Assembly (NCBI RefSeq): GCF_932294415.1
Contig: NC_065545.1
Span: 42,756,327-42,820,326 of the forward strand
Source of the DNA: Quercus robur
Taxonomy: Eukaryota > Streptophyta > Magnoliopsida > Fagales > Fagaceae
Reading direction: 5' to 3'
DNA: 64,000 nucleotides
Below are positions 4,363-63,344 of this stretch, one piece after another; position 1 is the first letter of the stretch; each line of letters begins with the position of its first letter. Below the pieces are notes generated by a model. The model saw nothing but the letters and a program-made list of their open reading frames with translations, was not told the origin of the DNA and searched no databases. The position numbers and the translations under genes are program-made.

Positions 4363-4793
4363 TTAGATTCTTTTTAGAATTCTCATGATAATTCCACCAT
4401 AAGCTTCTTAAATTATTATTTATTCCAATTATTTAAAAATGAGTGATTGTGAATTTTACCATGTCATCCGTAACTTAAATGGATACCAAAAACTGATAGT
4501 CAAAATTTTTAAAAATATTTATGATGTATGATTCATGCGTTTCAATATGAGTTACATGAGTTAATAAGATTATAAGGATTTAATAGTATAGTTAATCCGA
4601 CCATAGGACCCCTTAGTTTGTAACTGGCGGCTAGACCATAGTAACAAATAATATATATGACAAAGTTTGGTGGGTTGGATTGGATTGTCAACTTTTTATT
4701 TTTTATTTTACGGTGGATTGAGTTTGGTGCGTCAGTAGATTCATAAATCCGCCTAACCCGACGTGACCTACCTATATTTAATATATATTTAAA

Positions 4794-4979
4794 GGGTAAT
4801 GCTAACGAGTGCCCTTAGGGCACTCATTAATAATCCATTTTAGGAAAATTTTGATACCACTTTTATGGGAAATAAAAAAAAACTGTCAAAATATTAATTA
4901 CTTTTTTTTCATTTCCCATAAAAACTTTTTTTAAATGGATTATTAACAAGTGCCCTAAGATCACTCATTAGTATTACCC
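4794..4979. mobile_element. 186-bp foldback MITE with 9-bp target duplication
   Basis: The two ends are long inverted repeats beginning GGGTAAT and containing TTAGGGCAC. ATATTTAAA occurs at 4785-4793 and again at 4980-4988. A 9-bp duplication points to Mutator-like transposition. The empty site is preserved in the homologous segments near 20150 and 22515. Confidence 0.85.
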
Positions 4980-4992
4980 ATATTTAAAATAT

Positions 4993-7873: not shown

Positions 7874-7874
<1 letters not shown>

Positions 7875-7907
<33 letters not shown>
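7875..7907. repeat. (CT)n-(TA)n microsatellite
   Basis: CT repeats pass directly into TA repeats. The matching place in copy 3 (about 26815-26830) is much shorter, so the locus has changed length since duplication. Confidence 0.9.
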
Positions 7908-8381
7908 AAATAAGCAAATGTACATTTCCCTTTAATAATAAATTAGTCAGTAATTCACGCAACGCACAAAAAACTTTAATAAAATATATTTTTAATGATT
8001 TTCTCTTTCTTTTATTTAGTATATAAATATGAATTTTGATATTATGATAGTTATTAATATACATTAATTATAATTTTCTTTGTGTATAAAATATTAAATA
8101 CAGAATTTGATCATTATAATAGTTATTAATGAGCATTTATTTTGAGAATGTTTTATATGGAACTACTTTAAATATAATTATGATAATTAATATTAGGTTT
8201 TTAATAAATATATATAAATAAAAAGTTAAATTTTGATACAGTTTAGATGCTATATCTTAAGTTTTTCAATTAAATTTAAACATGTATTTGCATTGATTAA
8301 GTAGTAACATGGTTAAATTTAATTGTCACTAAAAAAGATAGTTTGACATGCACTGTATTGATTAATGCAATAACAATCGCA

Positions 8382-8483
8382 CTACTAGGGGAGGTTGTAT
8401 ATTATGTTTCCGTAACTTGCGTCCTCTCCCTCACACGAGGGTGGATGCATATTATGGAAACATGATGGATTTTCTTCTAGTAG
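8382..8483. repeat. 102-nt imperfect foldback, copy 2
   Basis: Same foldback as at 3962-4063. Its loop and arm substitutions are shared with the copy at 20808-20909 rather than with copy 1. Confidence 0.65.
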
Positions 8484-8581
8484 GGCCCACGATTTTTAGA
8501 AAACAAATTAAAAAAAAAAAAAAAAAAACATGTTGAAAACCATTTGACTGAACAGACTCTAGGATCTAACACAGGGACTTA

Positions 8582-9560
8582 GGCTGTGTTTGTTTTGGGT
8601 GTAAATGATTTTCGAAAATGCTTTTCTGGAAAAGTGGATGTTTTGGCTGTTACTGAAAATTCGGTCAAACTGAAAATGTTTTCAGTTTGACCGTAAAATA
8701 AGGCTGAGAGGGCGTAAAATAATTTATGTTCTCATTTTCACTTCAAATCACTTCTGCCCCAGGAAAATAGAAGAGACAGACAGACAGACAGCAAGGAAGA
8801 GAGATCGCACCAACACCCCAGTACCGACGAAGGCGAGATCGATCCACATCCAAGAGCTCCGACGAACCCAGAAAACCCAAGACCGAGCTTATTCGTCAAG
8901 CAATGCCCAAAGAGAGAGAAAGAGAGAGCGAGAGAAGGAAGGACTCAGACACGCAAATAGAGAGAGAGAGAGAGATCGCGCCGTCAAACCCATTCCTCAG
9001 ATCGCGAACCCATAAATCGTCAAACACATTCGTCACTGATCGTCGCGAACCCAGAAATCGTCAAATCCATTCGCCACCGATTGTTGCGAACCCAGAAATC
9101 GTCACACCATTCGTCAAACCCGAGATCGTCCCGCCGATCAACTTACTCTGGGTCGATCTGGTCAATCTCGTCGCCGATCCGCTTGCTCTCTTTGATCTCT
9201 AATTTTCTTCTTGTTGTTGTGGTAGCGTGGGTGGTTCTTGTTTTGTTGTTCTCTGATTTTGGCTTGATCTCTGATTTGATGAATTTTTTTTTGTTGGGTA
9301 TTGAGAATTTGGGTTTTGATGAATTTGGGTTTTGTTGGATTTGATGATATATTTGTTTGGAAGCTGAGAAAATGTGAGAAACATGATAAAAATGAGTTTT
9401 CTAGAGCATTTTCAAGAATACAACCAAACACCAGAAAATATTTTCCAAAATATTTTTGGGAATGCAACCAAATATTTGAAAATATTTTCCTTTCCCAAAA
9501 ATAACATTTCCGGAAAATATTTATTTTCCGGAAAATATTTTATGGGAACCAAACACAGCC
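8582..9560. mobile_element. 979-bp Tourist/Harbinger-like non-autonomous element, copy 2
   Basis: The ends are perfect 13-bp inverted repeats or close to it: it starts GGCTGTGTTTG and ends CAAACACAGCC. TTA is duplicated at 8579-8581 and 9561-9563. TTA duplication plus this end sequence is typical of PIF/Harbinger. There is no transposase. The interior (about 8760-9340) has a GA-rich leader, repeated CGAACCCAGAAATCGTCA blocks, then a T-rich intron-like stretch, which resembles a captured host 5' leader and first intron. The copy at 21001-21878 sits at the identical site. Confidence 0.85.
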
Positions 9561-9563
9561 TTA

Positions 9564-9771
9564 GTGTTAGTTTGGATTGCGTTGAAATGAAATTTCGGCA
9601 CATTTGCATCTTTGTCAGTAGATCTCGTGCACTGTTCATGGGACCCACAAGTTGTCTAATTCAACAAAATTTTCATTAAAACTGGGTCCCACGGTACTAT
9701 TCACACATTTAAAAATTATTTTGCTACAGTATTTTCAATTTTCAGCAATAAGTGGTATCCTAATAGACCCC
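9564..9771. mobile_element. Small Tourist-like MITE, copy 2
   Basis: Homologue of 4156-4362, bounded by TTA at 9561-9563 and 9772-9774. The larger Tourist-like element inserted at its left TTA. Confidence 0.6.
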
Positions 9772-9895
9772 TTAGATTCTTTTTAGAGTTCTCATGATAA
9801 TTCCACCATAAGCTTCTTAAATTATTATTTATTCCAACTATTTAAAAATGAGTGATTGTGAATTTTACTATGTCATCAGTAAGTTAAATGGATAC

Positions 9896-10362
9896 TGATA
9901 GAGAAGCGGAAAATAATCCATCTCCAGCTCGTCCAAATGGTTCGTCCAGAGCCTATAGCGCAGGTTGATCCAAGAGTCAACCCAGAAGAAGGAGAAACGT
10001 CCATTAAACAATAGCGCCACTCTATAAGTTAAGTCTCCCATGGATGACATGATCGTCCATGAAGGTCGTCCATGAGCAGCCATCAGATATCCTTGGACGA
10101 CCAAACAGTCCTACACCGGATGGACGAAAGCGCAACACTTGAATAAGTTAACTCCCACTGGCGGTTATAGTTTTTATATCCGTTGAGGCAGTTAACTCCG
10201 GCGTTGTTGGATTCCACAAAACCTAGGGAGGTTATTGGACAAATAACCGCCCCAGGCTCCCTATATAAGGGACCGGTCTGAACCCGACAGAGGTAAGATT
10301 TTCTCTAAGACAAATTTCCAAAACACTTGGAACTTCTTTCTCAACGAGTCTAACTTCTCCAT
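9896..10362 (+). repeat. 5' LTR, lacking its last ~127 bp
   Basis: It matches 19246-19712 of the 3' LTR without length change. At 10360-10362 (CAT) it jumps directly into gag. A TATA box (TATATAA, 10262-10268) is followed about 30 bp on by the probable transcription start. Six TCGTCC/GGACGA motifs lie in this LTR. Confidence 0.95.
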
Positions 10363-11716
10363 GCAGACGTCATCCGTGCAGAATATGCAATCCATGGCGG
10401 CTGCAATGGCGGAATTGACTCGCCAAAACCAGGAGTTAAGGATGGAGATCACTCAGAGGAGACAGACACGTGAGGAACATGCAGGGCAAACGCAAGGCCA
10501 TGGTGACACACAGAATACTGAGATTGGAAGTCAGTTTAGAGGCACTACTTCACGGACAGTGCCACACTTGAAAGAGGAGATGGACCAAATGAAGAAAGTC
10601 ATGGAGGAGATGAAGGAGAACATGAGGAGAACGAATCCTATAGAGGATTTGGTCCACAGGACTGACTCTCCTTTTACGGCTGCCATCAATGGCCACCCTC
10701 TACCATCAAAGTTCAAACTACCTTCCCTGGACTCGTATGATGGGACGCGTGACCCCTTCGATCACATTGCAACATTCAAAACAACAATGCACCTTCAAGG
10801 GGTCCCTGATGAAATCATGTGTCGAGCCTTCCCTACTACCCTTAAAGGCCCGGCACGAGTTTGGTTCAGTAAAATCCCCCCAAGTTCCGTAAGTTCTTTC
10901 GAAGAGTTAAGTAAATTGTTTGTTAACAATTTCATCGGGGGACAGAGGCACAAGCGCTCTTCGTCCAGCTTACTGACCATAGAACAAGGGGAGAACGAAA
11001 GCCTGCGGTCATTCATCACTCGCTTCAACAGAGAAGCCCTTAGTGTGGACGAGGTGGACGACAAGCTTCTATTGGCAGCCTTCCACAATGGGATTAATTC
11101 AGATTTGTTTATCCACAAGCTATATGAGAAGGAGCCCCAAACCATGGCCGAGCTCGTCCATTCGGCTCAGAACTTCATGAATGCAGAGGATGCGATCATA
11201 GCCAAGAAGAGGAAAAGAGCTGAGAGGATGGAAGCGCACCCAGCTCGACACTCAGAACAAGCCCCTCGTCCAAAGAAGGGACGGACGGAAGATAGGAAGG
11301 AACGAGATAACAGGAAGACAGGTCACTTGGGAAGAAGCCAGAACTATACGCCCCTAAATACTCCACTTAATCAGGTGCTCATGCAAATCAAAGACGATCC
11401 TTCTTTGAAATGGCCAGAGAAGATGAAAGGGGATCCTAACAAGCGCAATAAGAACAAATATTGTCGCTTTCACAAGGACCATGGGCATGACACAGATGAG
11501 TGTTATGACCTAAAACAGCAAATTGAGAACCTAATCAGACAAGGAAAGTTGAAGCACTTCGTTGGAAGGGATCGTACAGATGAGAAGCTGAAAGGCAAAA
11601 TGGAAGAATCATCCTGGCCCCCACTAGGAGAGATAAGGATTATCGTTGGAGGGAACTCGATGAGGCAATCTTCCAAGTCGAAGAAGACGTATCTTAAAGC
11701 GGTACAAAACGTCTAG
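10361..11716 (+). CDS. gag: Gag polyprotein of the Tat-type element, N-terminally shortened
   Basis: The 451-residue protein forms the virus-like particle and binds RNA. A Gln/Glu-rich coiled-coil region spans about residues 5-95, then the Retrotrans_gag domain (about 120-280, with F-D-H-I-A-T-F-K, A-R-V-W-F and F-I-T-R-F). A basic linker follows, then one zinc-knuckle-like motif at about 368-381, with spacing C-x2-H-x4-H-x4-C in place of the common C-x2-C. The first ATG here is an internal Met: the second element (63387 onward) shows about 32 further N-terminal residues, lost here in the deletion joining the LTR to gag. Gag ends at a UAG (11714-11716) and the pol frame continues in the same frame 30 nt later. 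Confidence 0.93.
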   Translation: MQTSSVQNMQSMAAAMAELTRQNQELRMEITQRRQTREEHAGQTQGHGDTQNTEIGSQFRGTTSRTVPHLKEEMDQMKKVMEEMKENMRRTNPIEDLVHRTDSPFTAAINGHPLPSKFKLPSLDSYDGTRDPFDHIATFKTTMHLQGVPDEIMCRAFPTTLKGPARVWFSKIPPSSVSSFEELSKLFVNNFIGGQRHKRSSSSLLTIEQGENESLRSFITRFNREALSVDEVDDKLLLAAFHNGINSDLFIHKLYEKEPQTMAELVHSAQNFMNAEDAIIAKKRKRAERMEAHPARHSEQAPRPKKGRTEDRKERDNRKTGHLGRSQNYTPLNTPLNQVLMQIKDDPSLKWPEKMKGDPNKRNKNKYCRFHKDHGHDTDECYDLKQQIENLIRQGKLKHFVGRDRTDEKLKGKMEESSWPPLGEIRIIVGGNSMRQSSKSKKTYLKAVQNV

Positions 11717-11746
11717 CTCTCTGGACGATCACCAAGGACGAGATCA

Positions 11747-14700
11747 ATGGACGAGCCAACCATTTCCTTCACCAACGAAGATGCTGAGAGGATCCATCAC
11801 CCGCATGATGATGCGATCGTCATTACACTGCTCATTGCAGATTATACAACCAGGAGAGTGTTAGTTGACAATGGAAGTTCAGCAGACATATTATACTACC
11901 CCGCCTTCCAACAAATGAGGCTTGGACGAGATCAACTTCGTCCAGTATGCTCGCCACTAATAGGATTTGGAGGAATGAAGGTGCAGCCCGTGGGTACCAT
12001 TACATTACCAGTTGTGGTAGGGCCATACCCGCAACAGGTAACCAAGGAAGTCAATTTCCTTGTGGTAGATTGTGCATCTTCATACAACGCCATTATTGGA
12101 AGACCCACTCTTAATAGTTGGAAGGCGATAACTTCGACTTACCATCTATTAGTCAAATTCCCTACGGAGTACGGGATAGGACAAGCACAAGGAGATCAGT
12201 TGGCAGCTAGAGAATGCTACTTAGCCATGATGGCTTTGGACGAACAGGTGCAGACAATGAGCATCGAGGAAAGAAGAGTTATTGTAGAGCCCACGGAAGT
12301 GTTGGAAGATGTTCTTTTGCAAGAAGATGATCCTGAGAAATTTACCAGAATTGGAACATGTATGAAGGAGAAGGCAAGGGAAGACCTCATCCAGTTCCTG
12401 AGAAAAAGTATCGACGTTTTTGCATGGAGTCATGACGACATGCCAGGAATCGACCCAAGTGTGATCACTCATCGGTTGAATGTATACCCCTTTTTTAAGC
12501 CCATCCGTCAGAAGAAGAGGGTATTCGCTCCCGAGAGGGACAAGGCAATCAAGGAAGAGGTTCAAAAACTGACCACGGCAAAGTTCATTAAGGAAGTCTA
12601 TTACCCCGATTGGTTAGCCAATGTGGTGATGGTGAAGAAAGCCAATGGAAAGTGGAGAATGTGCGTAGACTTCACTGACTTGAACAAAGCATGTCCCAAG
12701 GATAGTTATCCTCTGCCACGCATTGATCAATTGGTGGACTCTACTGCTGGCCATCAGTTGCTGAGCTTCATGGATGCCTTCTCAGGATATAATCAGATCA
12801 AGATGGATGAAGCTGATCAGGAAAAGACTTCCTTCATTACCAGCCAAGGCTTGTTTTGCTACAAAGTGATGCCCTTCGGCTTGAAGAACGCAGGGGCAAC
12901 TTATCAAAGGTTGGTGAATCACATGTTTCGTTCACAAATAGGACGGAATGTGGAGGTTTATGTCGACGACATGCTTGTGAAGAGCATAGACGAGGGAAGC
13001 CATCTAGACGACCTACAGGAAACCTTTGAAACACTTCGGCGATATAAGATGAAGTTGAACCCAAGCAAGTGTGCATTCGGAGTATCGTCAGGAAAGTTTC
13101 TGGGGTTCATGGTCTCGCAAAGAGGAATTGAGGCAAATCCGGACAAGATCCAGGCTATATTGAACATGGAGCCACCGAAGAGTATCAAGGAAGTCCAATC
13201 TCTCACAGGACGAGTTGCCGCTTTGAATAGGTTTGTTTCGAAAGCCACAGATAAGTGTTTACCTTTCTTTAAAGTCCTCAGGAAGGCATTTGAGTGGACG
13301 GACGAATGCCAAAGGGCCTTCCAAGACCTGAAGAACTACCTCACAACTGCCCCATTATTAAGTCCATCCGTGCAAGGAGAAGAACTGTACCTATACTTAG
13401 CGGTGTCCCCACACGCCGTAAGTTCAGCTTTAATCAGAGAAGAGGGGAAAATACAAAAACCGGTGTACTACACTAGCCGGGCACTCAGAGGAGTGGAGGG
13501 AAGATATCCGCTCATGGAGAAATTGGCTTTTGCACTGATAACAGCCTCTAGGAAGTTAAGACATTACTTCCAAGTTCATATCATCAATGTCATGACGGAC
13601 CACCCGCTTAAGAAGGCAATGAACAAGCTGGAAGCCGCAGGACGACTGATTCAGTGGGCAGTTGAACTTAGTGAATTCGACATTCGGTACCAACCGAGAA
13701 ATGCAATAAAGGCTCAAGCTCTAGCAGATTTCATCGTAGAGTTCACCCCAAGTTACGAAGACCTGGGGGAAGGAGAGTACAACAAATGGGTCATCCATGT
13801 AGATGGATCGTCTACATTATACGCTGGAGGAATAGGAGTTGTCTTGCAGTCGCCAGAAGGGGACAAATTGAAATACAAGGCCCGTCTGCAATACCAGACT
13901 ACTAACAATGAAGCGGAGTATGAAGCCCTTTTGAAAGGGTTGGAACTGGCTAAATCCGTAGAAGCAGACTCAATACTTGTCCTGAGAGACTCTCAATTGG
14001 TCATAGGCCAAGTCAATGGCACATGTGAAGCCAAGGAAGACAGAATGAAGAAATATTTAAAGAAGGTAGTACGCCTTGTGAAGAAATTCAAAAAAGCAGA
14101 TTTTGTTCAAATCCCAAGGGAAGAGAATGTGAAAGCAGATACTCTGGCGAAGGAAGCATCTGCGAATGAGGCGATGGACGAAATGGATGATGTACACTAC
14201 ATGCCAAGTATAGACCTTCCAGAATTGATGCAGATAGGGGGAGAAGGAAATTGGATGACCCCAATAGTATCATACTTAAAGGATGGAAGTCTTCCAGAAG
14301 AGAAGGACAAAGCTAGGAAGCTCAGGGTCAAGTCAGCCAAGTATGTGCTTATGGACGAAGTGTTGTATAAGAGAGGTTTTTCCCAGCCTCTCCTAAGGTG
14401 TTTGGCTCCGGACGAGGCAAATTACATGTTGAGGGAGGTTCACGAAGGAGCATGCGGGAACCATTCGGGAGCCAGATCACTCGTTCATAAAGTCATCCGT
14501 AGCGGATTCTATTGGCCAACCATCCAAGCTGATGCTAAAGCATATGTCAAAGTATGTGATCAATGTCAACGCTTTAGCAACATTCCCAGACAGCCAGCAG
14601 AATATCTCACGCCAATGATGGCCCCTTGGCCTTTCGCACAATGGGGACTAGATATTTTGGGGCCCTTTCCGACTGGAACTCGGCAAATGAAGTTTCTGGT

Positions 14701-15487
14701 GGTGGGAATAGATTACTTCACAAAATGGGTGGAAGCCGAACCCTTAGCCAAAATTACGCAGCAGAATGTCAAGAACTTCGTCTGGAAGAACATTGTATGC
14801 AGATTCGGAGTACCTAGAGTACTAGTGTCTGACAATGGACGACAGTTTGACAACACACCCTTCAGGGAATTTTGTGAACAACTTGGAATGAAGAACCATT
14901 ACTCCTCGCCCTCCCACCCACAGGCCAATGGCCAGGCAGAAGTAGCGAACCGATCCTTGCTGAAGATCATCAAGACTCGGCTCGAAGGGGCAAAGGGGAT
15001 ATGGCCGGATGAATTACCAGGTGTTTTATGGGCTTATAGAACGACAGCGAGAACTCCAACAGGAGAAACTCCTTTTAAACTAACCTACGGAAGCGAGGCA
15101 GTTATACCAGCAGAAGTACACATGACAAGCCACAGGATGAGGAAGTATCAAACTGAGGAAAATGAGGAACAGCTCCGTCTTAACCTTGACCTTATGGACG
15201 AGGTCAGGATGGATGCAGAACAAAGGACAGCAAGGTACAAAAATCTCATGGCAAGACAATATGATGCTATGGTGAAGCCTAGGCGTTTCAACATCGGAGA
15301 TCTCGTCTTGAAGAGGGTTACCCTGGCAACAAGAAACCCGGCCTACGGGAAACTTGGCCCAAATTGGGAAGGACCTTATAGGATTATCAACTGCAAAAGG
15401 CAAGGATCCTACTATTTGGAAGCTTTGGATGGGCGGAGGCTGGAACACCCTTGGAATGTTGAGCACCTCAGGAAGTACCATCAATAA
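11747..15487 (+). CDS. pol: Pol polyprotein (PR-RT-RH-aRH-INT) of the Tat-type element
   Basis: The 1246-residue polyprotein is intact. The aspartic protease has D-N-G-S-S at residues 41-45, the plant variant of D-T/S-G. Reverse transcriptase has Y-V-D-D at 405-408. A Ty3-type RNase H follows at about 555-640, with Y-Y-T-S-R-A-L and T-D-H-P. A second RNase H at about 683-810 has H-V-D-G-S-S, N-N-E-A-E-Y-E-A-L and D-S-Q-L-V, the archaeal-like domain that marks Tat elements. Integrase has an H-H-C-C finger at about 897-940 and catalytic residues near D968, D1028 and E1063. It ends after a short C-terminal module finishing W-N-V-E-H-L-R-K-Y. It has no chromodomain. The frame is shared with gag across one UAG, so synthesis may need stop-codon readthrough; alternatively the UAG is a recent CAG-to-TAG change. 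Confidence 0.96.
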   Translation: MDEPTISFTNEDAERIHHPHDDAIVITLLIADYTTRRVLVDNGSSADILYYPAFQQMRLGRDQLRPVCSPLIGFGGMKVQPVGTITLPVVVGPYPQQVTKEVNFLVVDCASSYNAIIGRPTLNSWKAITSTYHLLVKFPTEYGIGQAQGDQLAARECYLAMMALDEQVQTMSIEERRVIVEPTEVLEDVLLQEDDPEKFTRIGTCMKEKAREDLIQFLRKSIDVFAWSHDDMPGIDPSVITHRLNVYPFFKPIRQKKRVFAPERDKAIKEEVQKLTTAKFIKEVYYPDWLANVVMVKKANGKWRMCVDFTDLNKACPKDSYPLPRIDQLVDSTAGHQLLSFMDAFSGYNQIKMDEADQEKTSFITSQGLFCYKVMPFGLKNAGATYQRLVNHMFRSQIGRNVEVYVDDMLVKSIDEGSHLDDLQETFETLRRYKMKLNPSKCAFGVSSGKFLGFMVSQRGIEANPDKIQAILNMEPPKSIKEVQSLTGRVAALNRFVSKATDKCLPFFKVLRKAFEWTDECQRAFQDLKNYLTTAPLLSPSVQGEELYLYLAVSPHAVSSALIREEGKIQKPVYYTSRALRGVEGRYPLMEKLAFALITASRKLRHYFQVHIINVMTDHPLKKAMNKLEAAGRLIQWAVELSEFDIRYQPRNAIKAQALADFIVEFTPSYEDLGEGEYNKWVIHVDGSSTLYAGGIGVVLQSPEGDKLKYKARLQYQTTNNEAEYEALLKGLELAKSVEADSILVLRDSQLVIGQVNGTCEAKEDRMKKYLKKVVRLVKKFKKADFVQIPREENVKADTLAKEASANEAMDEMDDVHYMPSIDLPELMQIGGEGNWMTPIVSYLKDGSLPEEKDKARKLRVKSAKYVLMDEVLYKRGFSQPLLRCLAPDEANYMLREVHEGACGNHSGARSLVHKVIRSGFYWPTIQADAKAYVKVCDQCQRFSNIPRQPAEYLTPMMAPWPFAQWGLDILGPFPTGTRQMKFLVVGIDYFTKWVEAEPLAKITQQNVKNFVWKNIVCRFGVPRVLVSDNGRQFDNTPFREFCEQLGMKNHYSSPSHPQANGQAEVANRSLLKIIKTRLEGAKGIWPDELPGVLWAYRTTARTPTGETPFKLTYGSEAVIPAEVHMTSHRMRKYQTEENEEQLRLNLDLMDEVRMDAEQRTARYKNLMARQYDAMVKPRRFNIGDLVLKRVTLATRNPAYGKLGPNWEGPYRIINCKRQGSYYLEALDGRRLEHPWNVEHLRKYHQ

Positions 15488-16640
15488 GTGCTGACTCTTC
15501 ACCAGTGTCCTTGGACGAGATGTATGGACGAGAAGAAGTGTACTACTGTCAAGTGTTTTTAAGTATTTTAATAATCCCCTAGAAAGTGCATTAGTGTTTT
15601 CACTCTTGTGCTATTCATGGATGAGTTGGTTTGTATTTTTAATTCAATAAGGCACTAGCTAATGAGCATGTGCCATGCCTGTGGACGAATGTGTTACATA
15701 AGTTTGGATTTTCAAATATATATATATATATTGTTTTCAAATATATTACTGGAATCCTTATATGTTCATTCAGATTGATCCACAAAAAGAAAGTAATCAT
15801 GGACGAATAAAATCCTTGGACGCAAGGATATATCGTCCACAAGTCTCCAAAGGAAAAATGAAAAGGTACGTCCGTCCAGAATATGGGACGAGGTGAAACC
15901 CAAGCTAAAAATAAAGCTAAGGTCCATCCGTCCAGAACATAGGACGAGATGAAACCAAAGCTAAAAATAAAGCTAAGGTCCATCCGTCCAGAACATAGGA
16001 CGAGATGAAACCAAAGCTAAAGATAAAGCAAAGGTTCATCCGTCCAGAACATAGGACGAGATGATAACTAAGTTAAGGGCATACTCGTCTAGACCTCAAG
16101 ACTAGATGAATTCCCAGAAGTGTTCGTTCGAGACATGGACGAACAAAGACTTCAAAACTAGCTTAACAATCCATTACATTGGACGAGAAATCGCTAAAAA
16201 GTCTAATCGTCAAGGACGACAAAAATGATCGTCCATAATTTTGGAATGACAAAAAATCTAACCAAAAGGAATCAATTTACTTTATCTTGGTGATGTAATA
16301 AAATTCACCCCCATGCCCAAGACGAGGTGAACTGAATTCCTAGATGGACGAACCACACTTCTGATATGAAAATAAAAATTCATACATAAAGCTGAAAACG
16401 TATATATTCAAACACAATGGAAGTAAAAATAGAAGTATTCATTTCTTTCATGAAATTCAAAGGGTGGACGACCAACGTCCAAAAACCCCTTTAGTTTTGA
16501 ATGTATATAAAACTCGTCCATAATCCTGGACGAGATGATTGTACTTGCATGAGCTTTAAAAAAAAAAGAAGTAAAAAGCCCAAAACAACGGGCACTTCCA
16601 TGAAAAGACAAATGAAAGTAAATTTTCAAAAAAATAGATT
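15488..16640. other. Non-coding spacer between pol and the convergent antisense gene
   Basis: About 1.15 kb without a convincing frame. By eye it holds about sixteen GGACGA or TCGTCC hexamers, the 56-bp tandem repeats, a (TA)n run at about 15717-15730, and the presumed 3' ends and poly(A) sites of the two converging transcription units. Confidence 0.7.
15865..16078. repeat. Four tandem copies of a 56-bp unit
   Basis: Units begin at 15865, 15921, 15977 and 16033, all exactly 56 bp apart; the last is partial. Each contains CCGTCCAGAA, then GGACGAG, then AAAGCTAAAAATAAAGC. Each unit therefore holds a pair of oppositely oriented GTCC/GGAC motifs able to form a small stem. There are no variable spacers, so this is not a CRISPR array. 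Confidence 0.9.
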
Positions 16641-18879
16641 TCACTTGGGCAAGCTCGCCTTGGGGTCGTCCTGAGTAACTTCAGTGTTAGCATCGTCCAT
16701 GATATTGACGTCCTCGGAACTCGTCTGCAACATGGAACTCTCTGTAGCAAGAGGAAGCTTGAAGGAGTTGAAGTCCAAATCAGGATATGCGTCTTTGGCA
16801 TCAGCACGGAAGTCTTCATAACCAGCTGCATAATGACTGTCTAGACGATTCTTATACTCGTCAGACTTCTTAAAAGCAGCAATTGCTTCTTCACGTGCCT
16901 TCTCCAAGGACGAGGTAAGCTCTGCAACTTGTCCTTCTAGATGGACGATGCGGGTATCCTTCTCTAAGTTGTCAGCTTTGAGCTCCTCAACATCGTTCTT
17001 CAGCTTCGTCTCGCTTCCCAGCAGACTATTAAAGTCCTCGGTCAACCTAATGACCTCCCCCTTCTTGGATAAGACCTCATGGCTTAGCTCCTTAGCCTTA
17101 TCCTTGGCTGTCTTGGCCTCTGTAGCAAGCTCCTTGGCCTGGCAAGTCGCTGTATAAAACTTTGACATGGCCTGCATTTGGACGAAAAGGAGTTAGACAT
17201 TTCATTCAAAATTAAATGTTTACACACAAGGACGAGGAAGAAACTTACCTTGAAAAGGTCATGGATGCCAGAACGCTCAAACTCCTTCACTGACATGTTG
17301 TAACATTCGTTAACTTCATGTTCAGTGACGATCCCTTTGAACGTCCTCCATGCATAACCCTCGTCCAAAACCAAATTAGAGGGACGGTCAGAGGACTCAG
17401 ACGAGCCAGGCTTGTGAGAAGTTTTGGGAGCAGGGGGAGGATCAGATTGGACAGGATGAACTATTTGGACGGGCTCCACGTCCACAGGTTCGTCCAAGTT
17501 CACTGTTGGTGGTACGAACTTAGGAACCTTGGGAAGGGAAGTCTTACTTGGCTTTTGCTTCTTGTGGCCACGACGACTGGGAAGGTCGTCCAGGTCCACA
17601 TTGCTTGAGATTGGCTTGGACTTCCTCTTCCTAGCCTGGACGGAAGCCACTTTGGGAGTTGGGGCAGCAACATCCTCGTCCCCGCTAGCCACTGTTTTCT
17701 CTTTGTTTTCCCTCATCGTACTTATCCCTATGACGAGAAAAATTACTCAGAAAGATTAAAAAATAAAAAGAAAGGAAACTGAAATAATAGAATGTAATGG
17801 ACGACACTTACTTCGACGAGTGACCTCCTCATGACTTAGGTTCTCAGCAGTAGGAACTGGACCAAGTCCCCAAGTTGCTAGACGACTAAGGGTAACTAAG
17901 TCGTGGAAAGTCCTTCCTGAAAAGGTGCGTACCGCTTCTGTACGATCCAAGGAGAACTTATCCAAGTGTGGACGAACAACAGCTGTATCACCAATAGAAA
18001 GGGTTAGACGAGTGACAGATAACATTTAAAAAAAAAAAAAAAAAGACAAACAGAATAAAATAGAAAGAAAAACATACCCTCAGGACGAAGGCGACCTAGA
18101 GGGCTGGTAAAAGGTGGGAAGAGGGGATTACCCACATCAGCTGGGTCCCCAGCCCAATTTCCAGAAATAATAAAATATTCTTTTTTCCAAAACCGGTCAG
18201 ACGAACTACGGCCCTTTATTAAACTGTAATATGAACCCCTGGACGAGAACTGGTAAAAGCCAGCAGATTTTTTGATTTCTGAAGGCTTATAACAGTAAAG
18301 GAACTCGTCCACTGTAATTGGACGGTCCCCTTCCAATGCCTCACGCCATAATACTTGCATGGCTACAATCGTCCTCCAACCATTGGGATTGAGCTGGTTA
18401 GGCCCAATACCCAACCTTTGGAAGAGTTCTCTGCAGAAAGAGTTTAGGGGAAACCTAAGGCCAGCTAAAAGATAAGAAGCATATACCCCTAAGCCAGAGG
18501 AAGGGGTACAACACCACTCTCCAACCTTGGGTAGACGAGGGTTAAGCTCTTTAGGGATTTGATATCTATCTACAAGAGTTTTTAACTTAGCATCGTCTAA
18601 GGTGGATGCTACCTCTGGGGCACAACTATAGATTACATCTTCTTCGTCCTCTTCCTCGTCTTGAGGAGGACTAGATGGCTGTCTGGACGAACTAGCCTTA
18701 GATCCAGAAGCTGCCCTACGTCGTTGTTCCTGAAACTCCTCTAAAGGAATGCCAGGAACCCCAGACGAGTAATGCTCGTCTGAGGAATCACTACAGGACG
18801 AACTACTTACACTACCCTTACTCTCAGAGCCGTCCAGGTAGTCGTCTATCTCTCTCTCTAAACTAGAAGATGAGGACAT
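16641..18879 (-). CDS. Antisense spliced gene of the Tat-type element (gypsy-type transposon domain + coiled coil)
   Basis: Four exons on the minus strand join without a break: 18078-18879, 17812-17982, 17249-17727 and 16641-17171. They sum to 1983 nt, 660 residues plus stop. Every junction is GT-AG (donors GTATGT, GTAAGT, GTAAGT) and phases agree (1, 1, 0). Residues 1-95 are Ser- and acidic-rich and probably disordered. Residues about 105-270 carry Y-A-S-Y-L-L-A-G-L-R-F-P-L, L-N-P-N-G-W-R and F-W-K-K-E-Y-F, resembling the Pfam 'putative gypsy type transposon' domain (Transposase_28). A Lys-rich region (R-K-R-K-S, H-K-K-Q-K) in exon 3 could be a nuclear localisation signal. The last ~180 residues form a coiled coil with K-E-L, E-L and L-K heptads. 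Antisense frames are known in Tat elements, but their function is unknown. Intact phase in a young copy suggests selection on the protein. Confidence 0.82.
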
Positions 18880-19050
18880 GTTTGGAATGTAGAAGACTTA
18901 AAATGAGAGCCTAAAAAAAAAAAGAGAAGAAAAAAAGAAAAGAAAAGAGGAAATACCTGATGAAACTAGGACGAGAGCTAGACGAGAATCTTGGACGAAT
19001 TGGCAGAAGAGAGAATGAGGAAAAAAGTGAGGGGCATGAAAGAGAATGTA

Positions 19051-19060
19051 CTATTTATAG
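19051..19060 (-). promoter_or_regulatory. TATA box of the antisense gene
   Basis: The minus strand reads CTATAAATAG about 172-182 bp upstream of the ATG at 18879. It lies between the antisense ATG and the 3' LTR, on the opposite strand to the LTR TATA. This supports an independent promoter for the antisense gene, with a 5' UTR of roughly 140-150 nt. Confidence 0.65.
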
Positions 19061-19245
19061 GCCCCAGCAACAGGGTCAACGAAACGACGTTCGCCACTCA
19101 GAGATAGACACGTGGCGATTCTTTTGGGAAACGAGATCGACACGACTGGCCAACCAACAGTTTCGCGACACGTGGCGTACGAAAAAGTGAAATTTGACCA
19201 AAATCACAACGATGTCCTGGACGACCCTTTGAACAAAGGGGCAAC

Positions 19246-19839
19246 TGATAGAGAAGCGGAAAATAATCCATCTCCAGCTCGTCCAAATGGTTCGTCCAGA
19301 GCCTATAGCGCAGGTTGATCCAAGAGTCAACCCAGAAGAAGGAGAAACGTCCATTAAACAATAGCGCCACTCTATAAGTTAAGTCTCCCATGGATGACAT
19401 GATCGTCCATGAAGGTCGTCCATGAGCAGCCATCAGATATCCTTGGACGACCAAACAGTCCTACACCGGATGGACGAAAGCGCAACACTTGAATAAGTTA
19501 ACTCCCACTGGCGGTTATAGTTTTTATATCCGTTGAGGCAGTTAACTCCGGCGTTGTTGGATTCCACAAAACCTGGGGAGGTTATTGGACAAATAACCGC
19601 CCCGGGCTCCCTATATAAGGGACCGGTCTGAACCCGACAGAGGTAAGATTTTCTCTTAGACAAATTTCCAAAACACTTGGAACTTCTTTCTCAACGAGTC
19701 TAACTTCTCCATCGGAGGGGGTTCGACCGGTCATCTCCGGTCTCCTCTTTGATCGCGTTTTCTTCCTTGCAGGCCATTAACCATTTGAACAGCCCACCGA
19801 AGCCAGGCCATTCCACCTTACTGATTCGGAGTACTATCA
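19246..19839 (+). repeat. 3' LTR, complete (594 bp)
   Basis: It starts TGATAG and ends CTATCA just before the GATAC duplication. TATA box TATATAA is at 19612-19618. A short purine-rich tract (ACAAAGGGG, about 19233-19241) precedes it and is the likely polypurine tract. The terminal 127 bp (19713-19839) are missing from the 5' LTR. Confidence 0.95.
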
Positions 19840-20807
19840 GATACCAAAAACTAATAGTCAATATTTTTAATAATATTTATGATGTATGATTCGTGCATTT
19901 CAATATGAGTTAATAAGATTATAAGGATTTAATAGTATAATTAATCTGACCATAGGATACCTTAGTTTGGAACTGGCGGCTAGGCCATAGTAACAAATAA
20001 TATATATGACAAAGTTTTGTGGGTTGGATTGGATTGTCAACTTTTTATTTTATATTTTATGGTGGGTTGAGTTTGGTGCGTGTCAGTAAATTCACAAATC
20101 CGCCTAACCCGACATGACTTACCTATATTTAATATATATTTAAAATATATATTATATAATTTTATTATTTAATATTTTGTTTATCAATTGGGTTGGGATA
20201 AAACTATATAATATCCCACGAACTTTGAAGTACTAATAAAATAATTTATGTTAGTTTGGTACTATGCTCAGGTTTATTAGGTTATAATTTTGCTTTTATT
20301 TGTTTGGTGTTGTTCTAAAACTCAATTAAAATTAAAAAAAGAAAATATCTAACCCATGAGTCCAACTCAATCCAGGAGAGTTGGGTTGGACCCTTGTAAT
20401 GAGTTTGGATTGGGTTGGGTTGAATATTTTTCCAACTCGACTATGATGGAATAGATTATTTTTCTAAAAATTGTATTTGAAACCCGATTTCAAAACACAA
20501 TATTGACGTGATTTGTGTTTGACTCTTTTTTGAAAACATGTTTTTAAGAAGAGAACCAGAAAAAAATGTGTGTGTTTGGCTCTTATTTTATAAACAAGTT
20601 TACCTATTAGTTTGAATGATTGATTGAGATTTGAAACAATAGATGGTGTGGACTTCACAACTTTTCTGTTTATTCACAAGATTGCCACTGAATTTAGTTC
20701 TCTGTTTTCAAAAAACATTGAAAATTTTGTTTCTTATTTTTTTGTTTTACATGAAAATTGGATTTGGTTTTATGAAAACTGGAAACGATTGCCCAACAAC
20801 AATCGCA

Positions 20808-20909
20808 CTACTAGGGGAGGTTGTATATTATGTTTCCGTAACTTGCGTCCTCTCCCTCACACAAGGGTGGATGCATATTATGGAAACATGATGGATTTTC
20901 TTCTAGTAG
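20808..20909. repeat. 102-nt imperfect foldback, copy 3
   Basis: Same length and arms as the foldbacks at 3962-4063 and 8382-8483. Confidence 0.65.
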
Positions 20910-21000
20910 GGCCCACGATTTTTAGAAAACAAATTAAAAAAAAAAAAACATGTTGAAAACCATTTGACTGAATAGACTCTAGGATCTAACACAGGACTTA

Positions 21001-21376
21001 GGCTGTGTTTGTTTTGGGTGTAAATGATTTTCGAAAATGCTTTTCCGGAAAAATGGATGTTTGGCTGTTACTGAAAATTCGGTCAAACTGAAAATGTTTT
21101 CAGTTTGACCATAAAATAAGGCTGAGAGGGCGGAAAATAATTTCCGTTCTCATTTTCACTTCAAATCACTTTTGCCCCAGGAAAATAGAAGAGAGAGAGA
21201 GAGACAGACAGTAAGGAAGAGAGATTGCACTAGCACCCTAGCACCGGCGAAGGCGAGATTGATCCACATCCAAGAGCTCCGACGAACCTAGGAAACCCGA
21301 GCTCGTTCGTCGAGCAATGCCCAAAGAGAGAGAGAAAGAGTGAGAGAGCGAGAGAAGGAAGGACTCAGACGTGCAA

Positions 21377-21411
<35 letters not shown>

Positions 21412-21878
21412 CGTCAAACCCATTCCTCAGATCGCGAACCCATAAATCGTCAAACCCATTCGCCACTGATTGTTGCGAACCCAGAAATTGTCACACCATT
21501 CGTCAAACCCGAGATCGTCCCGTTGAATCGTCGATCAGCTTGCTCTGGGTCGATCGGGTTGATCTCGTCGTCGATCCGCTTGCTCTCTTTGATCTCTGAT
21601 TTTCTTCTTGTTGTTGTGGTGGTATGGGTGGTTCTTGTTTTGTTGTTCTCTGATTTTGGGTTGATCTCTGATTTGATGATTTTTTTTTGTTGGGTATTGA
21701 GAATTTGGGTTTTGTTGGATTTGATGATATATTTGTTTAGAAGCTGAGAAAATGTGAGAAACATGATAAAAATGAGTTTTCTAGAGCATTTTCAAGAATA
21801 CAACCAAATACTTGAAAATATTTTCATTTCCCAAAAATAGCATTTCCGGAAAATATTTTACGGGAACCAAACACAGCC
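21001..21878. mobile_element. 878-bp Tourist/Harbinger-like element, copy 3
   Basis: Ends GGCTGTGTTTG and CAAACACAGCC with TTA at 20998-21000 and 21879-21881. It is about 100 bp shorter than the copy at 8582-9560, mainly through fewer internal repeat blocks and a shorter right end; its (GA)n run near 21379-21408 is longer. It sits in the same position, so the insertion predates the copy 2/copy 3 duplication. Confidence 0.85.
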
Positions 21879-21881
21879 TTA

Positions 21882-22089
21882 GTGTTAGTTTGGATTGTGT
21901 TGAAATGAAATTTCAGCACATTTGCATCTTTGTCAGTAGGTCTCGTGCACTATTCACGGGACCCACAAGTTGTCTAATTCAGCAAAATTTTCATTAAAAC
22001 TAGGTCCCACGGTACTATTCACACATTTAAAAATTATTTTACTACAGTATTTTCAGTTTTAAGCAATAAGTGGTATCCTAATAGACCCC
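21882..22089. mobile_element. Small Tourist-like MITE, copy 3
   Basis: Homologue of 4156-4362 and 9564-9771, bounded by TTA at 21879-21881 and 22090-22092. Confidence 0.6.
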
Positions 22090-23094
22090 TTAGATTCTTT
22101 TTAGAGTTCTCATGATAATTCCACCATAAGCTTCTTAAATTATTATATATTTCAACTATTTAAAAATGAGTGATTGTGAATTTTACTATGTCATCAGTAA
22201 GTTAAATGGATACCAAAAATTGATAGTCAATATTTTTAAAAATATTTATGATGTATGATTCATGCATTTCAATATGAGTTAATAAGATTATAAGGATTTA
22301 ATAGTATAATTAATCCGACCATAGGATACCTTAGTTTGGAACTGGCGGCTAGGCCATAGTAACAAATAATATATATGACAAAGTTTTGTGGGTTGGATTG
22401 GATTGTCAACTTTTTATTTTATATTTTATGGTGGGTTGAGTTTGGTGCGTGTCAGTAAATTCATAAATCCGTCTAACCTAACATGACTTACCTATATTTA
22501 ATATATATTTAAAATATATATTATATAATTTTATTATTTAATATTTTGTTTATCAATTGGGTTGGGATAAAACTACATAATATCCCACTAACTTTGAAGT
22601 ACTAATAAAATAATTTATGTTAGTTTGGTACTATGCTCAGGTTTATTATGTTATAATTTTGCTTTTATTTGTTTGGTGTTGTTCTAAAACTCAATTAAAA
22701 TTAAAAAAAGAAAATATCTAACCCATGAGTCCAACCCAATCCAGGAGAGTTGGGTTGGACCCTTGTAATGAGTTTGGATTGGGTTGGGTTGAATTTTTTT
22801 CAACTCGACTATGATGGAATAGATTAAAAATACCTCTCAAACCGACCCATGCCATTCAACGATTTTAACAAATTGTGAAACAAGTTATGTTTTTTTTTTT
22901 TGGAAACTTGAAACAAGTTATGTTAAGTATATTTTTAAACTTTTTGGTTTTTTGGTTTGTTTAATTATTAATATGATAATTGGAGGGGGAGTGAACCCTG
23001 TGTATGACGAGAAAACCATCAAATGCCAGCTTAGACTTATTGTTATAATATAAGGTCATTTCACGTTTTCTAAATACAGGTACAATAGTATTTT

Positions 23095-26000
23095 ATTTTA
23101 ATGGCATTTTTTTTTTTGAGAAGATATTTTAATGGTATTATTTTTTTTTTGAGAAGATATTTTAATGTTAAGACTTAATGGCATACAACAAGCTCTAGCT
23201 TCCAAGCCTTCAACTTTCTTAGTTGAGTTAGAAAAGAAATTGCTTCTCGACCTGGACCTTGCCCTTGCCCAGGAAGAGGAGCTATGGGCCTTAAAATCTA
23301 GAGTTAATTGGATGGTTTTTGGGGATCGGAACACTTCCTTCTACCATCTCTCAGCCATTGTTAGAAGGAAAAGGAACCGCATCTCAGCCATAAAGAATAG
23401 TGTAGGGGATTGGTTTTTTGAAGAGGGTGCTATTATGGAGCATATTACCAAGAGTTTCATGGATCTTTACTCAACCTCCCAAGTTTGGTCTGATTGGCAT
23501 ACTTCTCCCACTACCCCTTGGCAACTCTCTCTCACAGAGAGTGAAAGAGATAATCTTGATGCTGAAGTTTCAGATGAGGAGATTAAGGCAGCCTTGTGGT
23601 CTCTTAAAGCCTTTAAAGCCCCGGGGCCGGATGGCTTGCATGCGGGATTCTTTCAACGGTTTTGGCTCATTGTTGGGGACTCGGTGAAGGTTGAGGTTAA
23701 AAAGGTGTTTATAGATAAAAAGGTCCCGAGATATTTAAACAAGACTCATATAGCGCTTATTCCTAAAGTCCAAGGGCCTGAAACTTTAGGGAACTATAGG
23801 CCTATTAGTTTGTGTAACACGGTCTACAAGATTATTACAAAGATTATTGTGGCAAGGTTAAGGCCAATTTTGGGGGAGCTCATTTCGCCGTTTCAAACAG
23901 CTTTTGTGCCTGGAAGGAGGGGAACGGATAATGCCATCATTGTGCAAGAGTTGATCCACACGATTAGCAAGAAGAATGGGAGAGTGGGCTACATGGCGAT
24001 CAAAATAGACCTTGAGAAAGCTTATGATAAGCTTGAATGGAGTTTTATAAAGGATGTTCTTGAGAAAGCAAATCTTCCAAAAAATTTGATTCAAATTATT
24101 ATGAGTTGTGTGTCGACAGTATCTTCTTCGGTTCTCTTTAATGGGGGTTGTTTGGAAGAGTTTTGCCCATCAAGGGGTATTAGACAAGGAGATCCCCTTT
24201 CTCCTTATCTTTTTATTCTTTGTATGGACTACTTAGGGCAGCTGATCCAAGAGAAGTGTGAGGAGAAAATTTGGACTCCGATCAAAGCATCTAGAGGTGG
24301 ACCGGCCTTTTCTCACCTCTTTTTTGCTGATGACCTTGTGTTGTTTGCTAAAGCTGATCACACTAATTGTTCAGCTATTCGAGATGTTTTGGATGAGTTT
24401 TGTGATATTTCTGGACAAACTATTAGTGATTCCAAGTCTAGAGTTTACTTTTCTCCCAATGTGGATCGTGATACAAAGGAATCCCTCAGTGATATCCTTG
24501 GTTTTCAATCCACCTTAACAATTGGGAAATATCTTGGTATCCCCATTAAAGTTCCGGGCTCCTCGACTCGGGATTTCAATTTTGTTGTGGATAGGATGAA
24601 ACAAAAGTTGGCGGGGTGGAAGGCTAGTTTGCTCTCTCAAGCGGGAAGGGCAGTGCTTGTTCAGTCATCTTTGTCAACAATTCCTAATTATGTGATGCAA
24701 TGCACACATCTTCCAGCTAAGGTGTTGGACAGTATAGACCGGGTGAATAGGAATTTCCTATGGGGGTCTACTGAATCCTCTAGGAAGATGCATTGGATAG
24801 GTTGGGAAAAGGTCACTAAACCAAAGGAGGAAGGTGGTTTGGGTCTCCAAACAACTAAGGGTAGAAATACAAGTTTGCTTGCAAAGCTGAATTGGAGGTT
24901 TCAGACGGAGGGGGATTCCTTATGGGCCAAAGTAATCAAAAGCAAGTATTGCTCCCAGCAGAGACTGAGGTCAAGGAGCAGTGACAAGCTTCCTTGCTCT
25001 CAAGTTTGGGCTGGAATGAGGAAGGCTAAAACTATTTTTCAAAATGGAACAAGGTGGTTTCCTGGAAGGGAGAGTAATTTGAATTTTTGGTTTGACTCTT
25101 GGACAAGTCTAGGTCCTCTAAGGCAGGTGATTCAAGGGCCTTTGCCTTTGGAAAGTGAGAAGCTGAAGATTAGAGATGTTGTTGATGATTCAGGGTGGAA
25201 TTGGGATCTAATCCCTTTTGATCTCCCTTTGAATTATAAGAAAGAGATACAAGCAATTCCTTTCGCCCTAACTACTAGAAGTCAAGACAGATTGGTTTGG
25301 GTGGGGGCCAAACATGGAGATTTTGATCTTCACAGTGCTTACAGAATTGCAGAGAATTTGGGAGCTGGTGAGCCTTTCCATGGGAAGTGGGTTTGGGATT
25401 TAAAAACTCTTCCTAAAATCCAGTTTTTCCTTTGGAAGTGCTGCCACAATAGTATCGGGGTTAGAGAGCGCTTAGTTGCTAGAGGCATTGGCACGGATGC
25501 CACCTGCCCTTTATGTCAAACTGGTGTTGAAACAATCTCTCATGCTCTTCGAGATTGTCCCACTCTCAAGGATTTGTGGATTCAGCTGGGTATTTCAGTT
25601 AGCAATGGGTCTTTCTTTGTGCAAAACTTTCATTCTTGGCTACCTTCTAACTGTGCAAATGATAAGGCAGATCTTTGTTCCCCCATTCCTTGGAAAATTG
25701 TGTTTCCTTTTGCTGTTTGGACAATCTGGAGTCATAGAAATCAGGTTGTGTTCAACAACAAAACTCCCAATTCTTCTTTAGCCAAAGATATAATCCATAG
25801 AGCCACGGAGTTCTTTTATTGTGCTTACTTCCCAAAAATAGCATCTCAATTGATAGCCAAACAGATCCGTTGGGAGAAACCTGGGCGTGGGTGGGTTAAG
25901 TTGAACACGGATGGGTCTTCCCTTGGAAATCCGGGGCTAGCAGGAGGTGGAGGCCTTATTCGTGATGAAGAAGGTGCTTGGGTTGTGGGTTTTGCTAGGA

Positions 26001-26433
26001 ATATAGGAATTTCTTCTAGTTTCATAGCAGAGCTTTGGGCCTTAAGGGATGGGTTGATGATCTGTGTTAATAGGAATTTTAATGCTGTTGAAGTTGAAGT
26101 GGATGCTAGAGCTGTAATTGATGTTCTCTCTGCTTCAAATTGCACTAATAGTCTGGCTGCCCCCTTGGTTGATGACTGCAAGCATTTGGCTACTCAGATC
26201 CACCAAATCTGCTTTAAGCACTGTTTTCGGGAAGCTAATCGAAGTGCAGACAAGTTGGCTAGGATGGGAGCTGCTCAGGATAGTCAGTTTAAGTTCTTCC
26301 CCTGTCCGCCTGTGGACTTAGTCAATGTTTTCAATTCTGATTTGAATGGTTTGTCCTCAACCAGGATATGTATTGACTCTGTTTTTGTTCCTTAGTTCTT
26401 AATGCAATCGTATTTTACCAAAAAAAAAAAAAA
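23095..26433 (+). mobile_element. 5'-truncated L1-like LINE inserted in copy 3
   Basis: The matching empty site in copy 1 (about 7480-7515) defines the insertion limits. The 3' end is a 13-A run. The 5' junction has two copies of a T-rich GAGAAGATATTTTAATG unit. About ten bases of target appear lost, and I find no clear target duplication. The endonuclease part of ORF2 and all of ORF1 are missing. Confidence 0.85.
23165..26395 (+). CDS. LINE ORF2 remnant: reverse transcriptase, zinc-binding region and RNase H
   Basis: This is an uninterrupted 1076-residue frame. Reverse transcriptase spans about residues 150-450: K-A-P-G-P-D-G, A-L-I-P-K-V, K-I-D-L-E-K-A-Y-D, R-G-I-R-Q-G-D-P-L-S-P and the catalytic F-A-D-D-L-V-L-F. 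A thumb/connection region follows, then zf-RVT (F-F-L-W-K-C-C-H-N, C-P-L-C, S-H-A-L-R-D-C) at about 750-800. The plant-LINE RNase H is at about 910-1045, with N-T-D-G-S-S, A-E-L-W-A-L, V-D-A-R-A and E-A-N-R-S-A-D. The N-terminal endonuclease is absent through 5' truncation, so the start codon is just the first ATG in the remnant. The copy cannot nick its own target, but its open frame implies recent insertion. Confidence 0.93.
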   Translation: MLRLNGIQQALASKPSTFLVELEKKLLLDLDLALAQEEELWALKSRVNWMVFGDRNTSFYHLSAIVRRKRNRISAIKNSVGDWFFEEGAIMEHITKSFMDLYSTSQVWSDWHTSPTTPWQLSLTESERDNLDAEVSDEEIKAALWSLKAFKAPGPDGLHAGFFQRFWLIVGDSVKVEVKKVFIDKKVPRYLNKTHIALIPKVQGPETLGNYRPISLCNTVYKIITKIIVARLRPILGELISPFQTAFVPGRRGTDNAIIVQELIHTISKKNGRVGYMAIKIDLEKAYDKLEWSFIKDVLEKANLPKNLIQIIMSCVSTVSSSVLFNGGCLEEFCPSRGIRQGDPLSPYLFILCMDYLGQLIQEKCEEKIWTPIKASRGGPAFSHLFFADDLVLFAKADHTNCSAIRDVLDEFCDISGQTISDSKSRVYFSPNVDRDTKESLSDILGFQSTLTIGKYLGIPIKVPGSSTRDFNFVVDRMKQKLAGWKASLLSQAGRAVLVQSSLSTIPNYVMQCTHLPAKVLDSIDRVNRNFLWGSTESSRKMHWIGWEKVTKPKEEGGLGLQTTKGRNTSLLAKLNWRFQTEGDSLWAKVIKSKYCSQQRLRSRSSDKLPCSQVWAGMRKAKTIFQNGTRWFPGRESNLNFWFDSWTSLGPLRQVIQGPLPLESEKLKIRDVVDDSGWNWDLIPFDLPLNYKKEIQAIPFALTTRSQDRLVWVGAKHGDFDLHSAYRIAENLGAGEPFHGKWVWDLKTLPKIQFFLWKCCHNSIGVRERLVARGIGTDATCPLCQTGVETISHALRDCPTLKDLWIQLGISVSNGSFFVQNFHSWLPSNCANDKADLCSPIPWKIVFPFAVWTIWSHRNQVVFNNKTPNSSLAKDIIHRATEFFYCAYFPKIASQLIAKQIRWEKPGRGWVKLNTDGSSLGNPGLAGGGGLIRDEEGAWVVGFARNIGISSSFIAELWALRDGLMICVNRNFNAVEVEVDARAVIDVLSASNCTNSLAAPLVDDCKHLATQIHQICFKHCFREANRSADKLARMGAAQDSQFKFFPCPPVDLVNVFNSDLNGLSSTRICIDSVFVP

Positions 26434-62664: not shown

Positions 62665-63324
62665 TGATGGTGTTACAAAAAAACCACCAACTCCTGATCT
62701 CATCCATATGGCTCGTCCAATGAAAGACCAATTAGAGCGAACCAAGCGTATGTAGTGATTGTCCCAGTAATGACCTTGTCCGTCCTTAGAAACATTTGGA
62801 CGGACAAGATCTACACTTGAAAAGGGAATTAGGAAGAAGTGAATGCATGAGGAAAAGTCGTCCCAAATAACCTCGTCCGTCCTTAATAAAGGATGAACGA
62901 GTTTATTGGACAACGTGTTGGACTTTGGACAACTTTGATTTCCATCGAGCGTAAGGGACAAGTTGAATTGCTATGAGCTGAGTTTTGCATTAACCATTAT
63001 GGAACACAGGTCCAAATAAGGTAACTTCCATGGCGGTTATGGAAGTTATCCCCGAATCCTCCGAACTCCTCAACAATAGGAACAGTTATTAAACAGAGAA
63101 CCGTTCACACATGCTATATAAGCATTCATCGATGAGAAGGTAAAGGTCATTTAGACACTTTTTTCAGAAATTACTTCCTTTTTACTTGGAATCGCAAATC
63201 CACTGACTTTATCATCGGAGGACTTTTGGCCGGTCCCCTCTGACTTAGTATTTGTTTTCAGGATCAAGCTCTAAGATCATCAACGCCTAAGACTTTCAAC
63301 TTATTGATTTCTAAGGAATCATCA
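62665..63324 (+). repeat. LTR of the second element (about 660 bp)
   Basis: It starts TGATG and ends CATCA, an inverted pair like the TGATAG/CTATCA of the first element. TATA box TATATAA is at 63115-63121. Several CGTCC/GGACG motifs occur, including TCGTCC near 62714, 62860 and 62874. The left boundary rests on the inverted end only. Confidence 0.75.
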
Positions 63325-63326
63325 AC

Positions 63327-63344
63327 TGGCGCCGTCTGTGGGAA
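63327..63344 (+). promoter_or_regulatory. Primer-binding site of the second element
   Basis: TGGCGCCGTCTGTGGGAA follows two bases after the LTR end. The leading TGGCGCC pairs with a tRNA 3' end (...GGCGCCA). The exact tRNA could not be assigned here. This site is absent from the first element. Confidence 0.8.

Follow-up and report, generated by a model that had tools for sequence, protein, structure and literature searches.

The locus raises the question of what an intron-containing gene, carried antisense within a Ty3/gypsy retrotransposon, does for the element that bears it. To our knowledge, no function is known for the TRP28 protein, which is conserved across flowering-plant Retand elements. 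The window analysed, the whole stretch of 64,000 nucleotides of Quercus robur contig NC_065545.1, has a G+C content of 36%, and the element occupies positions 9896-19839 (Table 1).

Table 1. Positions in the window of the retrotransposon, its antisense gene and the associated motif sites.
Feature	Positions	Strand	Remarks
Target-site duplication GATAC, left	9891..9895		from sequence
5' LTR, truncated copy	9896..10362	+	~467 of 594 bp; six TCGTCCA/TGGACGA sites at 9929-10127
gag frame	10361..11716	+	Retrotrans_gag, E=2.2e-15; start probably missing
pol frame	11747..15487	+	order: reverse transcriptase, RNase H, second RNase H-like (RVT_3), integrase
Noncoding spacer, pol to antisense gene	15488..16640		1153 bp
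56-bp tandem array in spacer	15863..16064		3.6 copies; GGACGA and CGTCC in each unit
Antisense exon 4	16641..17171	-	531 nt; coiled-coil-like region, acidic tail, stop
Antisense intron 3	17172..17248	-	GT-AG, 77 nt; one TGGACGA inside (17179 on +)
Antisense exon 3	17249..17727	-	479 nt; basic stretches at residues 357 and 376
Antisense intron 2	17728..17811	-	GT-AG, 84 nt; one TGGACGA inside (17798 on +)
Antisense exon 2	17812..17982	-	171 nt
Antisense intron 1	17983..18077	-	GT-AG, 95 nt
Antisense exon 1	18078..18879	-	802 nt; start codon, acidic N-terminus, Transposase_28 match
TATAAATA (TATA box), presumed core promoter of antisense gene	19052..19059	-	sequence match only
Two CACGTG boxes upstream of antisense TATA box	19109..19174	-	starts 19174 and 19114
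3' LTR	19246..19839	+	594 bp; same six motif sites as 5' LTR
Target-site duplication GATAC, right	19840..19844		from sequence
Span of 51 TCGTCCA/TGGACGA sites	9929..19477	both	LTRs, gag, pol, spacer, exons, introns, antisense leader
13-bp TCGTCC pair in LTR	9929..9947	+	second LTR pair at 10053/10066
Three TCGTCC sites at 13-bp steps, spanning gag-pol junction	11723..11754	-
13-bp pair directly after pol	15513..15531	-
13-bp pair (TCGTCC and TCGTCT), presumed 5' leader of antisense gene	18980..18998	-
Second element LTR	62683..63331	+	limits set by eye

Judged from its sequence, the insertion is young, because 3 of the 469 bases aligned between the two LTRs are mismatched. Elsewhere in the window the unoccupied site is preserved in two paralogues, at about 22209 (96.5% over 601 bp) and 4482 (90.4%). 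A repeated family with copies of several hundred bp to kilobases, 69-97% alike, occupies 3581-9963 and 19840-22810; the retrotransposon was inserted within one copy of this repeat, and the other copies represent its empty site. The 5' LTR matches the 3' LTR over part of its length and is then followed directly by gag coding sequence. Comparison by eye with a second copy indicates that the end of the LTR and the leader with the primer-binding site are missing from the first, and the first codons of gag are probably absent from it. By these features the carrier copy is defective, though young. A sequence-only reading of this DNA had taken the carrier to be young, which is borne out by the LTR comparison, the GATAC duplication and the empty sites; the loss of the 5' LTR end and the stretch following it, which that reading had overlooked, means that the carrier is not intact. 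Searches of the gag and pol frames against Pfam yielded no proteinase match at E ≤ 1; some published Retand clusters have no aspartic proteinase.

The second copy, a Retand-like element at the right edge of the window (62683-64000), comprises an LTR, leader and gag start. By eye, its LTR is followed by the leader and by an upstream in-frame start of gag. The gag product shares 87.8% protein identity with that of the first element over 172 aligned residues and contains a stop-like disruption; the LTRs of the two elements can barely be aligned. Other features of the window include a LINE-like non-LTR retrotransposon on the plus strand at 23165-26395, with a 1076-codon frame matching RVT_1, zf-RVT and RVT_3, and a further zf-RVT fragment at 892-1704. 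A 390-codon frame on the minus strand at 44680-45852 gave a match to Telomerase_RBD (E=0.00099) that lies under the Pfam cut-off.

The antisense gene had been proposed from the sequence as four minus-strand exons with GT-AG splice sites and 660 codons, convergent to gag-pol and preceded by a TATA box in the same orientation. This description holds, and the positions of the four exons are exact. The exons, running from 18879 to 16641, sum to 1983 nt, equivalent to 660 codons and a stop, with no internal stops in the reading frame. Both gag and pol lie on the plus strand, so that the gene converges on them, and TATAAATA starts at 19059 on the minus strand, 180 nt upstream of the start codon. The donors read GTATGT, GTAAGT and GTAAGT and the acceptors ACAG, ATAG and GCAG. 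Introns are 26-35% G+C and 40-59% T, compared with a G+C content of 47-51% in the exons; using codon statistics from gag and pol of the same element, the joined frame ranked top of the six frames in all four exons. Since the introns are T-rich and GC-poor and the coding frame ranks first throughout, the four-exon model appears better than chance. The argument that such introns would persist since they are not spliced from the genomic RNA is sound as reasoning.

The predicted protein matches Transposase_28 (PF04195) in Pfam with E=6.6e-07 and 29.9 bits against a cut-off of 26.2. The domain had been expected over residues 105-270; the match lies above the cut-off and covers residues 133-174 only. 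An acidic N-terminus and a basic region, both anticipated, were found: the N-terminus is Ser-rich with net charges of -7 (residues 1-60) and -5 (residues 61-120), and the basic stretches are RKRKSK (357) and RRGHKKQK (376). For the coiled coil, a heptad-like hydrophobic pattern near residues 492-559 agrees with the proposal on a crude score only. The C-terminal tail is acidic. A search of PDB sequences with exon 1 returned none of 177,635 entries at E ≤ 10, and an AlphaFold model of the exon-1 domain (187 aa, no alignment) had a mean pLDDT of 40.6, too poor to use. DUF1985 and DUF287, the domains of VANC proteins, were absent from the eight Pfam matches at E ≤ 1, and the gene is therefore not a VANC by family.

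A second line of evidence comes from a short word dispersed through the element. TCGTCCA/TGGACGA occurs 51 times within it and three times in the remaining window, one of the three lying in the LTR of the second element. With the 3' LTR left out of the count, 45 sites are found, whereas 500 dinucleotide shuffles averaged 0.90 and never exceeded 5. The word is the top 7-mer of the element (-log10 P 57.6) and of the two element-overlapping chunks among eight of 8 kb (28.5 and 31.9), whereas the best 7-mer in each of the six chunks outside the element reached 3.9-5.5, distinct flanks being counted in this comparison. The motif was picked from the same single element, and its excess is still extreme against the approximately 8,000 possible 7-mers. 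It is densest in noncoding parts: exact sites per kb number 12.8 in the LTR, 10.4 in the spacer and 5.5 in the antisense leader and promoter, compared with 3.7-6.3 in the antisense exons, 3.7 in gag and 2.1 in pol; the introns range from 0 to 13 (2 sites in 256 bp). The spacer contains 12 exact sites, against a shuffled mean of 0.09. Strand use does not depart significantly from equality (20 versus 31, P=0.16).

The bases flanking the sites are unconserved; the motif is therefore not a copied longer repeat, and an origin as a copied tandem repeat was rejected. A purely protein-driven excess was also rejected, pol excepted, after permutation of synonymous codons. The antisense exons hold 9 sites compared with 2.07 after permutation (0/1000 permutations as high) and gag 5 compared with 0.41 (0/1000). 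In pol, 8 sites compare with 4.18 (12/1000), other 7-mers exceed the motif, and the amino acids MDE underlie four of the eight sites; the excess there would be mostly an amino-acid effect. A 41-bp tandem array rich in TCGTCA lies to the left of the element and outside it (9002-9116), its repeated word being related to the motif and not identical to it.

Sites of the motif also tend to be paired. Six pairs of TCGTCY on the same strand are separated by 13 bp, and any other distance from 7 to 40 bp yields at most two. The 13-bp distance was picked from the same element and the test allows for a choice over 7-40 bp: one of 5000 sets of jittered positions was as good at any such distance. For TCGTCC, five pairs were counted (1/5000 jittered sets), and for the strict 7-mer three, a weaker result (39/5000). 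Two of the six pairs have a site in common, and the bases between paired sites differ. Pairing of this kind is what a protein binding as a tandem dimer would select, and the heptad-like region of the antisense protein would fit such a mode of binding.

The LTR of the second element contains 9 motif cores, compared with a mean of 0.71 and with none of 500 shuffles reaching 9; three of the cores are intact and six are CpG-decayed, the decayed forms having been chosen after inspection of the data. No cores occur in the kilobase preceding this LTR, and a 10-kb control contained 4 against a mean of 5.40. The exact TCGTCCA is found once in the second LTR and 13-bp pairs are absent from it; the 516 bp of gag in this element show no excess (1 versus 0.52).

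Database searches for relatives were largely negative. Against viral contigs, exon 1 of the antisense gene gave 18 pattern matches and part of pol gave two, none of them relatives, and the reverse transcriptase pattern gave no match. Against genome contigs the reverse transcriptase pattern retrieved a single contig, L001, filed under Streptomyces clavifer, in which positions 2498-4642 encode a Ty3 pol of plant type, 40% identical, that includes two RNase H-like domains; its presence there is probably due to contamination. No 7-mer is dominant in L001 (best -log10 P 4.1; one TCGTCCA), which is a weak control, the region between pol and the 3' LTR being absent.

Our preferred explanation, put forward tentatively, is that the locus is a young and defective retrotransposon of the Retand kind whose spliced antisense TRP28 gene may encode a VANC-like, sequence-specific activator of its own family. 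TCGTCCA is likely a protein-binding site; that the antisense protein is what binds it has about an even chance. We infer both the identity of the binder and its activating or anti-silencing effect. The gene would give rise to a nuclear DNA-binding protein recognising TCGTCCA, partly as tandem pairs spaced by 13 bp. Sites on both strands have built up in the element: those of the LTR lie before the sense TATA box, and others occur in the antisense promoter and leader, the spacer and the introns. Binding would then keep the family's own copies transcribed despite host silencing, as VANC does for VANDAL. The earlier suggestion of a nuclear regulator of the element fits these features, and the dispersed motif offers a new clue to it; as a discovery the antisense gene was overstated, in view of the antisense genes already described (PMC11963269 and PMC7264820, partial texts).

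Alternatively, the element may recruit a host transcription factor through the motif, and the antisense gene may be a normal TRP28 accessory gene of Retand that serves a different purpose, such as bringing the preintegration complex into the nucleus. At the level of DNA the motif gives a strong signal, but nothing ties it to the antisense protein; nuclear and retrovirus-like accessory roles have been proposed (PMC7264820 and PMC11963269, partial texts), and the six sites of the 5' LTR all precede the sense TATATAA (10262), in the region where host factors act. Such a factor would readily account for enhancer sites within the LTR. It explains the dense sites in the spacer, introns, gag and antisense exons less well, and we regard this explanation as unlikely, while giving it appreciable weight. 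It is considerably less probable that the excess is a functionless by-product, either of old tandem-repeat remnants or of mutational or compositional bias. The 56-bp array of the spacer does carry related words, and such arrays are frequent in Retand elements (PMC11963269, partial text), but the counts were made on distinct, unconserved flanks and the excess survives both dinucleotide and synonymous-codon shuffling outside pol. Furthermore, the word contains CpG though the window is CpG-depleted (0.43 observed/expected to the right of the element).

That the antisense frame is untranslated and its RNA is what regulates the element, for instance through double-stranded RNA, has been raised as a possibility (PMC7264820, partial text). 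It appears more doubtful still, given 660 open codons across three well-formed introns, a coding-like frame in four of four exons and a Pfam domain above cut-off. The least probable explanation is that the motif acts in RNA, as a packaging or Gag-binding signal or as a regulator common to sense and antisense transcripts: its density through the transcribed body, gag included, would suit this role, but both strands are used and the six sites in each LTR precede the sense TATA box, so that those of the 5' LTR would fall outside the genomic RNA.

Returning to the preferred reading of a Retand element with a self-activating TRP28 protein, the comparison with known systems begins with Retand itself. 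The element has the Retand order of reverse transcriptase, RNase H and integrase and also a further RNase H-like domain, which is a trait of the Tat clade. Its LTR (594 bp), internal region (8,883 bp in this truncated copy) and interval from pol to the 3' LTR (3,758 bp) fall inside the Retand ranges of 315-1,194 bp, 7,380-12,869 bp and about 2,933-6,566 bp, respectively (PMC11963269, partial text). Further points of likeness are an antisense Transposase_28 gene between pol and the 3' LTR, a long pol-3' LTR region and a tandem array adjoining pol (PMC11963269, partial text). The same source reports antisense TRP28 ORFs in 97% of recently active Retand clusters, calls them characteristic of the lineage, predicts DNA binding and suggests a regulatory role; the available part of its text mentions no dispersed motif such as that described here. 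No report of a dispersed motif in Retand elements was found among the matches listed from open-access literature. That study scored ORFs, whereas a four-exon spliced model is presented here; the word "intron" is absent from the main texts of both PMC11963269 and PMC7264820, so that the division into four exons may have gone unreported. Taken alone, the antisense gene is a further example of a published Retand hallmark and mostly not new.

HBZ of the human retrovirus HTLV-1 is a spliced antisense product. Like the present gene, it is encoded antisense close to the 3' LTR, and it is a nuclear regulator, as proposed here, but the protein is unrelated to antisense TRP28. Its function is mentioned in PMC11963269 (partial text). 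A parallel in plants is gene23 of maize Grande (Gomez-Orte 2013), an accessory gene in antisense orientation that is transcribed from a promoter of its own and whose product is nuclear (PMC7264820, partial text); the same source urges the examination of spliced antisense transcripts.

The VANC proteins of VANDAL elements offer the functional precedent. VANC21 binds a 9-base motif that is dense in the noncoding parts of its own element and removes silencing there (PMC5735166, partial text), and the present locus resembles this in having an element-encoded protein alongside a short, strongly enriched motif that crowds the noncoding parts of the element, in places within tandem repeats (PMC5735166 and PMC10398659, partial texts). 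A second member, VANC6, has the motif AGTTGTCC (PMC5735166, partial text), whose partial likeness to TCGTCC is probably due to chance. According to the same partial texts, VANDAL is a Mutator-like DNA transposon with DUF1985/DUF287 proteins, the VANC21 motifs are arrayed in one orientation, and binding and demethylation by VANC are experimental findings; the present element is a retrotransposon with an unrelated domain and sites on both strands, known from sequence alone. A bolder form of the comparison, which we consider unlikely as yet, is that Retand evolved VANC-like self-recognition independently of VANDAL, with TRP28 reading a paired motif private to its family and reactivating only its own kin. 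The approximately 50 copies of a 7-base word in a TRP28-encoding element reduce the question of the role of TRP28 to one binding assay. If true, self-recognition would explain why almost all Retand families with recent activity retain the gene, and TRP28 proteins would supply sequence-specific epigenetic activators. Sequence-specific anti-silencing would then have arisen at least twice among plant mobile elements, in DNA transposons such as VANDAL and in retrotransposons.
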